A stretch of DNA of 34,320 bases. Source: Clostridia bacterium. Lineage in GTDB: Bacteria; CBDUZB01; JAGLHV01. The notes beneath the pieces were generated by a model, which was not told the DNA's origin, did not search any database, and was given only the letters and a program-made list of their open reading frames with translations. The stretch is taken from positions 1 through 34,320 of the forward strand of contig JAUVLC010000016.1 of the NCBI GenBank assembly GCA_030595925.1, written 5' to 3'. A program made the translations under genes and the position numbers. Position 1 is the first letter of the stretch; each line of letters opens with the position of its first letter. This document shows, one piece after another, positions 13,868 through 18,371 of this stretch.

Positions 13868-15406
13868 TTGTTAAAGCATAAGATGACCGGATATGTAGGG
13901 AGGATTAGTTCTGCTACTCTGTTGAGTAGAATTTTAGGATATATAAGAGATATGTTGATTGCGAATATGTTTGGGGCAACGTTAGTGGCAGATGCTTTTT
14001 ATGTTGCTTATCGTATTCCCAATTTACTCAGGCGTTTACTGGGGGAAAACGCCTTATCCAGTTCTTTTATTCCTGTTTTTACCCAATATTTGACCAATAA
14101 GTCTAAAAAGGAGTCACAACAATTAGTAAGTGTAGTAGTTACGGTTTTATTGCTCGTTTTATCTGTTTTAACTGTAGCCGGGATGATTTTTGCTCCGGTT
14201 TTAGTGCATTTGATTGCTCCCGGGTTTGCTAAAGATCCTCAAAAATTAGCCTTAACCATTCAACTTACCAGAATAATGTTTCCTTTTATGACTGCTATAG
14301 GTTTAGCTGCCCTTACTATGGGAATTTTAAATTCGTTACATAAATTTATTATTCCGGCCTTAGCTCCGTGTTTTTTAAGTATTTCCGAGATATTTTTTAT
14401 TTTAACCATCTGTCCATTGATGGATACCCCGATAAAAGGATTAGCCGTAGGAGTTTTAATTGGCGGATTCGGACAATTAATTTTTCAAATACCTTCGGTG
14501 ATAAAAAGTGATTTTTTGGTTAAATTGAAATTAGATTTATCTCATCCGGGGTTGAAAAGAGTCGGATTTTTAATGTTACCCGCGATTATAGGGCTTTCTG
14601 TAAATCAGATTAATATTTTTGTCGATACTATTTGTGCTTCGTTATTAAAAGAAGGGAGTATAACGGCTTTGTATTATGCCAATCGTTTGGTGCAATTTCC
14701 CTTGGCTTTGTTTGGTACGGCTATTGCTACGGTAACACTTCCTCTTTTGTCCAGGAGTATAGCGGAAAACAACTTAGAAGATATGAAAAGAACCCTTTCT
14801 TTATCTTTAAGAATGGTTATTTTTACTATAATTCCGTCTGCTATCGGATTAATTATTCTGGGGAAACCGATTATCACGGTATTATTCCAAAGAGGGGAAT
14901 TTTCTTCACTGGCTACAATGATGACTTCGTCGGCTCTGTTTTTTTATTCGTTGGGATTATTTGCCGATGCCTCAGTGAAGATAGTGGTTTCAGCTTTTTA
15001 TTCTTTTCAGGATACACGTACCCCTGTGAAAACGGCGAGTATTTGTATGATCATAAATATAGTTTTGGATATAATTCTGATGAGAATTTTGCAGGTTGGG
15101 GGGTTAGCTTTAGCTACTGCTATTGCTTCTTTTGTTAATATGTTCCTTCTCTTTATTTTATTACGCAAGAGAATCGGGCAATTGGGTGGGAAAGAAATTG
15201 TTAAATGTTTCATTAAGACTGCCATAGCCGGGATAATAATGGGTGTTATTTGTTATTTCGTTGCTTTTTTCTTGTTTGAAAATAAATATTTGAAGGTTTC
15301 TATTTCTTTGCTTTTGAGTATAATTGTTTTTATTGCTGCCGCGCACATTTTAAAAATAAAAGAAATGGAGTCTGTTTGGAAATTATTTGCTAAAAAGGAA
15401 TCGTGA
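13868..15406 (+). CDS. murJ: Lipid II flippase MurJ (MviN)
   Basis: 512 residues, about 14 membrane helices, MOP exporter superfamily. The start is TTG at 13868 because AGGAGA (13857-13862) is five bases upstream; ATG 13883 would be too far. Hallmarks are the N-terminal SSATLLSRILGYIRDMLIANMFG and DAFYVAYRIPNLLRRLLGE with the conserved arginines, and a mid-protein region LYYANRLVQFPLALFG. It flips the lipid-linked peptidoglycan precursor across the inner membrane. It is followed by uvrC 21 bases later, so the two may share a transcript. Confidence 0.92.
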   Translation: MLKHKMTGYVGRISSATLLSRILGYIRDMLIANMFGATLVADAFYVAYRIPNLLRRLLGENALSSSFIPVFTQYLTNKSKKESQQLVSVVVTVLLLVLSVLTVAGMIFAPVLVHLIAPGFAKDPQKLALTIQLTRIMFPFMTAIGLAALTMGILNSLHKFIIPALAPCFLSISEIFFILTICPLMDTPIKGLAVGVLIGGFGQLIFQIPSVIKSDFLVKLKLDLSHPGLKRVGFLMLPAIIGLSVNQINIFVDTICASLLKEGSITALYYANRLVQFPLALFGTAIATVTLPLLSRSIAENNLEDMKRTLSLSLRMVIFTIIPSAIGLIILGKPIITVLFQRGEFSSLATMMTSSALFFYSLGLFADASVKIVVSAFYSFQDTRTPVKTASICMIINIVLDIILMRILQVGGLALATAIASFVNMFLLFILLRKRIGQLGGKEIVKCFIKTAIAGIIMGVICYFVAFFLFENKYLKVSISLLLSIIVFIAAAHILKIKEMESVWKLFAKKES

Positions 15407-15427: not shown

Positions 15428-16732
15428 ATGGAAATAAAAGAAAGAAACAATTTAACAATTGAATTGGAAAAAATACCTTCCCGTTGCGGTGTTTATTTAA
15501 TGCAAGACAAAGAAGAGGAAATTCTTTATATCGGAAAAGCGCGTTCTTTAAAAAAAAGAGTTTCTTCTTATTTTCACAAAAAAAATATTGAACCTAAAAC
15601 AAAATTTTTAATAACACAGGTTAGGAATATTAAATTTTTAATTACAGATTCCGAAAAAGAGGCCTTGATTTTAGAAAATGAACTCATTAAAAAATTTATG
15701 CCTAAATATAACATTGAAAGAAAAGATAATAAAGCCTATCCATATCTTAGATTGACTGTTAAAGATGATTTTCCCCGGATTGGTATTGCCCGCAAAATAA
15801 AAAAAGATAATTGTCAATATTTCGGCCCCTATCCTGATGGTGTTCATCTTCGCAAAAATTTATATTTAATTAAAAGGATATTTCCCATTAGGAGTTGTAA
15901 GTATACTAAATTGCCGAAAAAAGCTTGTTTGAATTATTATATCCAGCGGTGTTTTGGACCGTGCATTGGAAAAATAAGCAAGGAAGAGTATCAAAAAAAA
16001 ATAAAAGAAGTAATTCTTTTTTTAAGCGGAAAAAGAGAACAATTGTTAAAAAAATTAAATTGCCAAATGCGAGTGGCTGCCGGTAAATTAGATTTTGAAA
16101 AAGCCAACAGGATAAAAAAAGAAATCAGTGAAATAAAAAAAATTACGCAAAAAATAACAGTTTGCCGGATAGGAAAAGATGAGGTTTTTAGAAAATTAGA
16201 AAAGACAAATTTGCTTTTGAGTTTAAAAAAAATTTTGGAGATGAAACAATTTCCATATCGAATCGAAGCATTTGATATTTCCAACATCAAGGGGATGCAG
16301 GCTGTTGGGTCCATGGTTGTTTTTGAAAATGGACGGCCGCGAAAAAATAAATACCGTAGATTTAAAATCAAAACAGTTTTTAAAATAGATGATGTTGCTA
16401 TGTTAAGGGAGGTTATTAAAAGAAGATTTGAAAATAAAGAGAGGGTGGTGAAAGATAAGAATATTCCTGATTTAATTGTTGTAGACGGAGGGAAGGGGCA
16501 GGTAAATGGAAGTAAAAAAATTTTAGAAGATCTTTTTTTAGAAAATATTCCTTTGATCGGATTAGCTAAAAAAGAAGAACATATTTTTTTACCACAGAAA
16601 TCTAAACCTTTAATTTTAGCGAAAGAATCTAAAATATTACATTTTATTCAGGAAATCAGAGATGAAGCACACCGGTTTGCCGTTACTTACCATCGGGTTT
16701 TGAGGAGAAAAAAAATATTGTCTAAAAAATAA
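15428..16732 (+). CDS. uvrC: Compact UvrC nuclease subunit of nucleotide excision repair
   Basis: 434 residues against about 600 for usual UvrC. Visible in order: GIY-YIG nuclease (GVY at 21-23, YIG at 34-36, R39, E84); four cysteines C157, C167, C175, C179 for the Fe-S cluster; a UVR motif at about 203-238 for UvrB binding; and the RNase-H-like nuclease with D283 (AFDIS), D353 (VVDGG) and H415 (DEAH). Missing are about 100 residues normally between the UVR motif and the RNase H domain, and the C-terminal helix-hairpin-helix pair that binds DNA (the protein ends KKILSKK). All catalytic residues I can check are present, so this is a streamlined enzyme rather than debris. It makes the two incisions around a lesion with UvrAB. 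Confidence 0.9.
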   Translation: MEIKERNNLTIELEKIPSRCGVYLMQDKEEEILYIGKARSLKKRVSSYFHKKNIEPKTKFLITQVRNIKFLITDSEKEALILENELIKKFMPKYNIERKDNKAYPYLRLTVKDDFPRIGIARKIKKDNCQYFGPYPDGVHLRKNLYLIKRIFPIRSCKYTKLPKKACLNYYIQRCFGPCIGKISKEEYQKKIKEVILFLSGKREQLLKKLNCQMRVAAGKLDFEKANRIKKEISEIKKITQKITVCRIGKDEVFRKLEKTNLLLSLKKILEMKQFPYRIEAFDISNIKGMQAVGSMVVFENGRPRKNKYRRFKIKTVFKIDDVAMLREVIKRRFENKERVVKDKNIPDLIVVDGGKGQVNGSKKILEDLFLENIPLIGLAKKEEHIFLPQKSKPLILAKESKILHFIQEIRDEAHRFAVTYHRVLRRKKILSKK

Positions 16733-16738
16733 TAATTT

Positions 16739-17491
16739 ATGTTTAAAGAATGGTTAAATAAAAAAAAAAAAATGTTTTTTCTTGCATTATTTATTGGAAT
16801 ATGCTATATTTTTAATGTGAGATTTGTAAGTAGATGCATAATCGTTTTTTTGTTGGTGTTTTTTAATGGATTTGTTTGGGCAAAAGAAGCAAAAATTATT
16901 TTGAAAAATGGTGGTTTGTTGTATGGAGAGGTAGTTCAGGAAGAGGATGATTGGGTGTTAGTAGAAATAGCAGAGGGTGGTTCTTTAGGGTTATATCGAG
17001 ACGAAATAAAGTCTATTGTTTATAATCCAGCAGGAAAAGTGAAGAAGAAGAATTATATTACAGTTTCCGGCCAAACTACTTACCTAGTAGGACTTACCTG
17101 GGAAGATAATTGGGATTCTCTTATAAAAAAAGCAGCAAAAAGATATCGATTAGATCCCTTTTTAATTAAAGCGGTAGCAAAAGTAGAATCTAATTTTGAT
17201 CCATATGTTATTTCCCATAAAGGAGCAAGTGGATTGATGCAATTAATGCCGGTGACGGCTAAGGATTGCAGAGTAGATGATATTTTTGACGCGGAAGAAA
17301 ATATTGAAGGGGGAACTAAATTTTTACGTTATTTATGGGATATTTTTGATGGCGATTTGAAATTGGTTTTAGCAGGATATAATGCCGGGCCCAATGCCGT
17401 TAGGAAGTATAAGGGAGTTCCTCCCTATCGGGAAACACGCAATTACATAAAGAAAGTTTTGTTTTATTATAGTTATTACAAAGATGAGTAA
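16739..17491 (+). CDS. SLT-family lytic transglycosylase
   Basis: As drawn, 250 residues. The lysozyme-like SLT domain covers about 122-245: catalytic glutamate E150 in KVESNFDP, GASGLMQLMP (163-171) and AGYNAGPNAV (212-221). It cleaves peptidoglycan glycan strands in the periplasm. Before it, about 50-100 is a small beta module (KIILKNGGLLYGEV). The start is uncertain: ATG 16739 lacks a ribosome site and gives two hydrophobic stretches, whereas GTG 16817 gives a clean signal peptide (MRFVSRCIIVFLLVFF...VWA) and lies just after a good promoter. It overlaps the next gene by eight bases. Confidence 0.85.
   Translation: MFKEWLNKKKKMFFLALFIGICYIFNVRFVSRCIIVFLLVFFNGFVWAKEAKIILKNGGLLYGEVVQEEDDWVLVEIAEGGSLGLYRDEIKSIVYNPAGKVKKKNYITVSGQTTYLVGLTWEDNWDSLIKKAAKRYRLDPFLIKAVAKVESNFDPYVISHKGASGLMQLMPVTAKDCRVDDIFDAEENIEGGTKFLRYLWDIFDGDLKLVLAGYNAGPNAVRKYKGVPPYRETRNYIKKVLFYYSYYKDE
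16782..16810 (+). promoter_or_regulatory. Promoter inside the annotated 5' end of the transglycosylase gene
   Basis: TTGCAT (16782-16787), 17-base spacer, TATATT (16805-16810). The expected transcription start near 16817 coincides with the in-frame GTG that begins a signal peptide. Confidence 0.45.
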
Positions 17492-17870
17492 GAAAAAAAG
17501 AAGGAATAATATTAGGAATGATTTTAAAGTAATGAATTTAAAAGAAATACAAAAAAAATTAGAAAGTTACTCTCCTTTTTTCCGCAAAGTTTGGGCGGTA
17601 ACTGCGACAATTCTTCCTGGACAGATAAGATCTTATCAGTGGGTAGCCAATAAAATAGGTAATTCTGAGGCGGTAAGAGCTGTTGGTCAGGCTTTATCTA
17701 AAAATCCGTTTCCCGGTATAATTCCTTGTCATCGAGTAATTTGTAAAAACGGGGAAATAGGAGGGTTTTTTCAAGGAAAGAAAAAAAAGGAGAGGTTACT
17801 AAAAAGAGAAGGGGTTTTATTTTATAGAGCCGGTTCTCTGAAATTTTTAAAGAAAGGAGATTCGAAATAA
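17484..17870 (+). CDS. ogt: Methylated-DNA--protein-cysteine methyltransferase (Ogt/MGMT)
   Basis: 128 residues covering only the C-terminal DNA-binding and active-site domain. It has IRSYQWVANKIGN (helix-turn-helix with wing), AVRAVGQALSKNPFPGIIPCHRVI with acceptor cysteine C82 in PCHRV, and GEIGGFFQGKKKKERLLKREG. It repairs O6-alkylguanine by irreversible transfer to C82. The N-terminal ribonuclease-like domain of classical Ogt is missing, as in ATL/MGMT minimal forms, but the cysteine is present, so it is not an ATL. It overlaps the transglycosylase and ends directly at the ATG of the first cold-shock gene. Confidence 0.88.
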   Translation: MSKKKRRNNIRNDFKVMNLKEIQKKLESYSPFFRKVWAVTATILPGQIRSYQWVANKIGNSEAVRAVGQALSKNPFPGIIPCHRVICKNGEIGGFFQGKKKKERLLKREGVLFYRAGSLKFLKKGDSK

Positions 17871-18071
17871 ATGAAAGGTAAAGTTAAATGGTTTAATGAA
17901 TCCAAAGGATTTGGATTTATTGAAAGAGAAGATGGAACGGGTGATGTGTTTGCACATTATTCCTCTATTGGTGGTGATGGATTTAAAACACTTGCTGAAG
18001 GTGATGCGGTGGAATTTGGCTTAGAAGATTCTGACCGGGGACCTAAAGCTTCTAATATAGTGAAAATATAG
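17871..18071 (+). CDS. Cold-shock protein, copy 1
   Basis: 66-residue CspA-like OB fold: [20 protein letters not shown] with RNP1 KGFGFI and RNP2 VFAHY (the usual form is VFVHF). It binds single-stranded RNA or DNA and melts RNA structure. The AAAGGAG ribosome site lies inside the end of ogt, and the ATG follows the ogt stop without a gap. It is 300 bases from, and nearly identical to, copy 2. Confidence 0.95.
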
Positions 18072-18170: not shown

Positions 18171-18371
18171 ATGAGAGGTAAAGTTAAATGGTTTAATGAA
18201 TCCAAAGGATTTGGATTCATTGAAAGAGACGATGGAGCAGGTGATGTATTTGTACATTATTCTTCCATTGGTGGTGATGGATTTAAGACACTTGCTGAAG
18301 GTGATGCGGTAGAATTTGAATTAGTAGATTCTGACCGGGGACCTAAAGCTTCTAATGTGACAAAAGTATAA
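18171..18371 (+). CDS. Cold-shock protein, copy 2
   Basis: 66 residues, differing from copy 1 at about eight positions (for example VFVHY for VFAHY, ELVDS for GLEDS). The 28 bases upstream repeat the 3' end of ogt with its ribosome site (ATTTTTAAAGAAAGGAGATTC at 17843 and 18143), so the second copy arose by tandem duplication of a 300-bp unit. It is closed by a strong terminator. Confidence 0.95.

Follow-up and report, generated by a model that had tools for sequence, protein, structure and literature searches.

Domain organization of the compact UvrC

This locus raises the question of whether a UvrC of 434 residues, which lacks both the domain that full-length proteins carry between UVR and RNase H and the C-terminal helix-hairpin-helix (HhH) region, can be the working excinuclease subunit of its cell. 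It lies in a draft genome of a Clostridia bacterium, and the whole stretch of 34,320 nucleotides that was analysed is referred to here as the window. Taken together, the sequence evidence makes it probable that the protein is the cell's working, naturally compact UvrC with an ordinary function. The gene and its parts are as follows.

15428..16732, + strand: compact uvrC, a complete open reading frame of 434 amino acids (TIGR00194, 442.1 bits) and the only UvrC found in the genome
15485..15712, + strand: GIY-YIG nuclease domain, residues 20-95 (PF01541, 44.9 bits), predicted to make the 3' incision
15896..15964, + strand: cysteine cluster C157, C167, C175 and C179, the predicted Fe-S ligands from the alignment
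16037..16141, + strand: UVR motif, residues 204-238 (PF02151, 20.2 bits against a cut-off of 21.5), degenerate, the predicted UvrB contact
16142..16225, + strand: 28-residue linker between UVR and RNase H, in place of the PF22920 RNase H-like domain, from comparison with the full-length relative L008
16226..16684, + strand: RNase H/EndoV-like domain, residues 267-419 (PF08459, 187.2 bits), predicted to make the 5' incision
16685..16729, + strand: 15-residue basic tail from the end of the Pfam RNase H domain to the protein end, where (HhH)2 would follow

The TIGR00194 model, an equivalog of excinuclease subunit C, was matched well above its cut-off of 285.45 bits. The longer model NF001824 was not reached (387 against 451 bits), as expected for a short protein. 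The Cho model was also matched, at 62.8 bits against a cut-off of 367 and over the N-terminal half. This match and the reduced length would suit a Cho-like accessory nuclease that is not the main UvrC. Cho is described as devoid of the EndoV/RNase H module in excerpts of PMC1564403, whereas the domain in the window protein is complete, with PF08459 (UvrC_RNaseH_dom) covered end to end (profile positions 1-159 of 159). An accessory nuclease would also need a separate full-length UvrC beside it, and searches of the window genome with the protein and with PF08459 returned one locus and no second UvrC. The genome is a draft of 193 contigs with a completeness of 97%, and we regard the accessory nuclease as extremely improbable. 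The search for a full-length paralogue that had been proposed with the original prediction thus ended in its favour.

The coordinates and the length of 434 residues in the original prediction were exact, and our alignment confirmed both nuclease sites and the four cysteines. The GIY-YIG catalytic residues Y23, Y34, K37, R44, E83 and N95 are retained, as are the RNase H active-site residues D283, D322, D353 and H415. The latter four positions are kept in all 16 alignment rows of proteins that lack both the middle insert and HhH. The fourth cysteine is found in 14 of these rows and the other three in all 16. The UVR motif had also been predicted and it does align, with its key aromatic F223 kept (F or Y at this position in 16/16 of the same rows), although its Pfam score falls short of the cut-off; the sequence is best described as recognisable though degenerate. 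Furthermore, all 38 near-invariant columns (conservation of 95% or more among the 128 full-length rows, counted only where the window UvrC has a residue) are unchanged. The short UvrC is an inherited form and appears to be constrained.

An AlphaFold model of the window UvrC (pLDDT 78, pTM 0.45) was compared with known structures by Foldseek. It matched the C-terminal UvrC halves 8b0q, 2nrt (42% identity) and others, and the UvrC GIY-YIG structures 1yd6 and others. The model supports both predicted nuclease folds and not their mutual arrangement, which is too uncertain to use at this pTM. Among solved structures, a sequence search with the window UvrC matched UvrC fragments only, and excerpts of a 2021 and a 2022 paper state that a full-length UvrC structure is unavailable.

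The missing middle domain and HhH region

No match to PF22920 or to any HhH family was observed in the window UvrC by Pfam at E values up to 1. In the full-length relative L008 the Pfam order is UVR (204-238), PF22920 (252-369), RNase H (389-541) and HHH_5 (557-606). The same two absences are seen in our alignment of 164 distinct proteins, obtained from 181 matching loci after removal of 17 that were identical or contained in others. UVR and RNase H lie 52 residues apart in the window protein against at least 149 in the 140 insert-bearing rows, and the tail past the RNase H domain measures 7 residues against at least 55 in the 134 HhH-bearing rows. The predicted absence of the C-terminal HhH is therefore borne out.

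The inter-nuclease segment is likewise absent as predicted, but the original estimate of roughly 100 residues was too low, since about 115-120 residues are missing, and they form a domain. In the predicted structure of L008 (pLDDT 80.6, pTM 0.43), residues 253-344 follow the order strand-strand-strand-helix-strand-helix-strand. Residues 248-368 superpose on 2qh9 with a Z score of 9.9 over 108 residues (rmsd 2.7). This entry is listed without an assigned function and we take it to be EndoV-like. The name of PF22920, 'UvrC Ribonuclease H-like domain', and the predicted L008 fold with its 2qh9 match agree that the missing segment is, as modelled, a second RNase H-like domain in its own right. In a 2023 study on Deinococcus UvrC the middle domain was reportedly called an inactive RNase H domain.

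The original prediction had also seen no HhH coding sequence before position 16739. Just six bases separate the uvrC stop codon from the next open reading frame, which encodes a lytic transglycosylase, and thus no in-frame or frameshifted HhH follows. The missing domains could instead act in trans, with another protein supplying the HhH or the RNase H-like domain, and HHH_5 does match three times elsewhere in the window genome at E 0.001; the frames that hold these matches measure 206, 407 and 894 residues. The shortest of these frames is still 206 residues long, so that no small stand-alone HhH was seen in this genome, and the gene next to uvrC is the transglycosylase. A displaced PF22920 domain was not found by profile search of the window genome. 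PF22920 was in fact unmatched in all 20 no-insert genomes tested (the three of the window genus and 17 further ones, with G013, G070 and G153 excluded), whereas it was present in 6/6 insert-bearing genomes tested. Supply in trans is accordingly judged very unlikely. Among the controls of the profile search, Thermotoga maritima gave a PF08459 match without a PF22920 match, and its domain may be lacking or divergent.

Conservation of the short form and its gene neighbourhood

Two other, independent assemblies of the genus, JAGLYT01 and JAGLHV01, carry the same UvrC architecture with the same ends, at 90% and 77% identity. The genus has one short UvrC in each of its three genomes, in frames of 431-435 residues, and these three are all the genomes of the window's phylum in the survey set. 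The short architecture was also observed in L007 ('Elusimicrobia bacterium fen_1175'), whose UvrC is 46% identical to that of the window, and in all five genomes of L007's phylum including L007 (frames of 429-440 residues). In the L007 protein no UVR match was found by Pfam at E values up to 0.1. The survey of the clade that had been suggested for the short form is hence positive in 3/3 and 5/5 genomes respectively.

These counts bear on whether the short gene results from an assembly error, a frameshift or a recent pseudogenisation of a full-length gene. A draft genome in 193 contigs leaves room for such an artefact. The identical ends in two genus assemblies at 90% and 77% identity, the frame without an internal stop and the complete set of near-invariant columns all speak against it, and an artefact has in our judgement a negligible probability. 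A natural, compact gene is the reading that we retain.

The genes on either side of uvrC are as follows.

13868..15406, + strand: murJ (PF03023), the upstream neighbour, a synteny marker with no part in the repair function
16739..17491, + strand: lytic transglycosylase, SLT (PF01464), directly downstream
17484..17870, + strand: short O6-alkylguanine-DNA alkyltransferase-like gene, MGMT, with a PCHR motif (PF01035, 102.7 bits), a conserved neighbour

The murJ gene adjoins uvrC also in L005, L006, L007, L068, L069, L070 and L054, and SLT follows uvrC also in L005, L006, L007, L067, L068, L069 and L070. The complete order murJ-uvrC-SLT-MGMT is common to the window, L005, L006, L007, L069 and L070. 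Partial orders were noted as murJ-uvrC-SLT in L068, uvrC-SLT-MGMT in L067 and murJ-uvrC-MGMT in L054, in a comparison where some stretches stop at contig ends.

The alkyltransferase-like gene lies two genes past uvrC, and PF01035 occurs near uvrC also in L005, L006, L007, L067, L069, L070, L057 and L054. Alkyltransferase-like proteins are not known to carry the cysteine, which the window gene (17484-17870) has. According to excerpts of PMC7835731, alkyltransferase-like proteins feed nucleotide excision repair. Downstream of this gene, positions 17871-18071 hold a cold-shock gene (PF00313) of which 18171-18371 is apparently a tandem copy, and the first of these frames matches two adjacent places in L005. 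Elsewhere in the window, positions 548-2851 encode an Eco57I-type restriction-modification methylase with a TaqI-like specificity domain.

The UvrA and UvrB partners

The window genome encodes a complete UvrA (1-924 of 924) and a UvrB covering 1-657 of 658 with its C-terminal UVR intact. In the other two genus genomes, which are drafts, only part of UvrA is present (positions 1-302 in G001 and 98-923 in G002, of 924) and the UvrB of G001 is split across two contigs. Of the 22 genomes whose UvrC is without the middle domain, 21 gave a UvrB match at E 1e-50, and in 20 the cut-off was exceeded. G001 and G005 match UvrB only in part, and G009, a metagenome-assembled genome from L007's phylum, gave no UvrB match.

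Distribution of UvrC forms across bacteria

The survey sample consisted of 193 genomes chosen as relatives, nearly all of them related only at domain level. The UvrC RNase H domain was found in 185 of these, three of which belong to the window genus, and no match was obtained in the other eight. The remaining 182 genomes represent 163 family codes, and their UvrC forms were classed by gap and tail length in the alignment. Both domains are present in 145, the middle domain without HhH in 22, neither in nine and HhH without the middle domain in six. Five of the 22 (L132, L220, L243, L239 and L246) are uncertain owing to a contig end, a broken frame or RNase H match, or an intermediate tail. By length, the middle domain is absent in 15/182 and HhH in 26 of the 177 classifiable genomes. 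The distance between UVR and RNase H is bimodal, at 38-63 or at least 149 residues with none between, apart from a value of 7 in two proteins that have no UVR.

The two losses co-occur (Fisher p 2.3e-5, odds ratio 12.8) among the 177 genomes of certain class, by a plain Fisher test that ignores kinship, over genomes that for the most part belong to separate families. Absence of the middle domain also goes with a smaller genome, with a median of 1.7 against 2.65 Mb (p 6e-4, kinship again ignored). A small genome is not required for the short form, because it also occurs in the single-contig genome G146 of 6.4 Mb. These observations suggest that the loss pattern described in Helicobacter recurs, with both domains missing together above chance and in smaller genomes.

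Several individual proteins depart from these forms. In L011 (8001-9026, Candidatus Paceibacterota) and L016 (5241-6266, uncultured bacterium) the UvrC is also without the UVR segment, in an open frame of 362 residues. The uvrC stop codon of L011 overlaps the start of uvrB, and the UvrB of L011 retains its own C-terminal UVR-like end. The Amesbacteria UvrCs (L013, 7950-9173, and L014, 7950-9176) show an alignment gap at the fourth cysteine, and the UVR of L013 scores above the cut-off (32.7 bits). L058 (G144) has HhH without the middle domain and no cysteine was seen in its usual Fe-S region. In L042 (G092) the UvrC is 535 residues long and, judged by length, carries both accessory domains, and its stretch from GIY to the fourth cysteine is 45-50 residues shorter than usual.

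Evolution of the short form

A core tree of 68 rows was built from the complete sets of 24 no-insert rows and 12 rows with the insert and without HhH, together with 32 of the 128 full-length rows, of which 30 were picked randomly. In this tree 11 rows form a single branch (SH-aLRT 93, with weak resolution within it), and all of them lack both domains. The branch comprises the window genus, L007 with its relatives, G067, G078 and G083. The window genus and L007's group are joined with an SH-aLRT of 95, and deeper branches are weak. Judging by these sequences, the short form is passed vertically within the clade and is no recent truncation.

The number of changes needed for the no-insert form was eight on a quick tree of all 164 rows and seven on the 68 rows, of which the starred branches force only two. 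A single clade of no-insert forms was not rejected by the AU test (p 0.408), and repeated loss is likewise compatible with the data. An independent-pairs test of the two losses on the 164-row tree found just one pair on starred branches. Since the tree is unrooted, it is frequency alone that points to loss rather than late gain, and the short core may be the older form, with PF22920 and HhH as later additions.

Compensation by basic charge was considered and set aside. The mean charge of the RNase H domain is +7.8 in proteins without insert and HhH against +3.8 in full-length forms, and that of the stretch from the fourth cysteine to the end of UVR is +4.4 against -1.4. No conclusion is drawn from this difference, since the protein looks lysine-rich and the genome AT-rich, and the rows are related.

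Proposed mode of action

We propose that UvrA and UvrB would locate and verify the lesion and that the UVR of the compact UvrC would dock on the UVR of UvrB. The GIY-YIG domain would then cut 3' of the lesion and the RNase H domain 5' of it. The two missing domains, RNase H-like and HhH, would be accessory parts with which this lineage dispenses, and contact with DNA would be left to UvrB, the RNase H surface and the Fe-S region. Both the cutting on two sides and the mode of holding DNA are inferred for the compact UvrC, whose remaining contacts probably suffice. Against this best reading stand the UVR of the window, which scores under its cut-off, and the UVR of L007, which was not matched up to E 0.1; the UvrB contact may thus be weakened. 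The incomplete UvrA of both genus mates, the split UvrB of one of them and the missing UvrB match in G009 also count against it.

The original prediction concluded from the missing HhH that DNA binding must be handled differently. The Helicobacter proteins indicate that this wording was too strong. Excerpts of PMC9426483 (2022) report that in all Helicobacter UvrCs aligned the DNA-binding region is cut to one HhH or missing and that Helicobacter felis and H. suis are without the middle region. Disruption of the single HhH of H. pylori is described in the same excerpts as not raising UV sensitivity markedly, and the active-site mutants were not UV tolerant. In the discussion of that article, as excerpted, further contacts to DNA are assigned to the Fe-S loop and to a conserved patch on the RNase H surface.

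These mutants also help to weigh a different possibility, namely that damage-dependent cutting by the compact protein is efficient on one side only, probably 3', while the 5' cut is inefficient for want of HhH or is made by another nuclease. This would agree with the contribution of HhH to incision in E. coli, for which Moolenaar 1998 and Verhoeven 2002 are cited in the literature. The 5' residues D283, D322, D353 and H415 are nevertheless kept in the window protein and in 16/16 rows of the same architecture, which would be unexpected if the 5' cut were dispensable, and the UV tolerance of the H. pylori HhH mutant contrasts with its loss in the active-site mutants. A single cut is for these reasons rather improbable, though it is the alternative to which we give most weight.

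Returning to a compact UvrC that cuts on both sides, a more specific form can be put forward tentatively. The middle and HhH domains might be one functional unit, prone to joint loss, that acts as a regulator or as a module for lesion flexibility. The core of 434 residues, together with UvrA and UvrB, might excise as a natural minimal dual-incision UvrC, possibly over a narrower lesion range. Natural UvrCs of about 430 residues with both active sites offer small test proteins for the requirements of dual incision.

Comparison with known systems

The window UvrC shares with canonical UvrC (E. coli, T. maritima and B. caldotenax) the order GIY-YIG, Cys4, UVR (in degenerate form) and RNase H and the catalytic residues, and the UvrA and UvrB partners of canonical UvrC are encoded in its genome too. 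It differs in having 434 instead of about 600 residues, without the PF22920 middle domain and the (HhH)2 tail. Excerpts of PMC1564403 give the UvrC order as C4-UvrBb-EndoV-HhH, describe Cho as carrying a different domain where UvrC has UvrBb-EndoV-HhH, and mention a G. violaceus form that is UvrC-like without EndoV and HhH. Cho resembles the window protein in its N-terminal GIY-YIG and Cys region, and differs by the absence of the RNase H domain that the window protein has. The G. violaceus named above is presumably of the genus Gloeobacter.

Among the short forms of the survey, the UvrC of L007 has the architecture and neighbourhood of the window, although Pfam shows no UVR in it up to E 0.1, unlike in the window protein. 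The minimal UvrCs of L011 and L016 have GIY-YIG, Cys4 and an active RNase H as in the window and are also without insert and HhH, and they differ in having no UVR.

The closest precedent is Helicobacter, where losses of the middle region and of HhH are reported as in the window; the likeness is one of description. H. pylori retains a single HhH, whereas the window protein has none, and the excerpts of PMC9426483 do not spell out which species lack both regions. No report of a compact UvrC in this lineage, or of the wider loss pattern, was among the matches listed in the open-licence literature, and an earlier report may exist. The window UvrC is a new, well-conserved lineage of the reduced UvrC already known from Helicobacter, and the survey and the co-loss of the two domains are what is added to prior knowledge.
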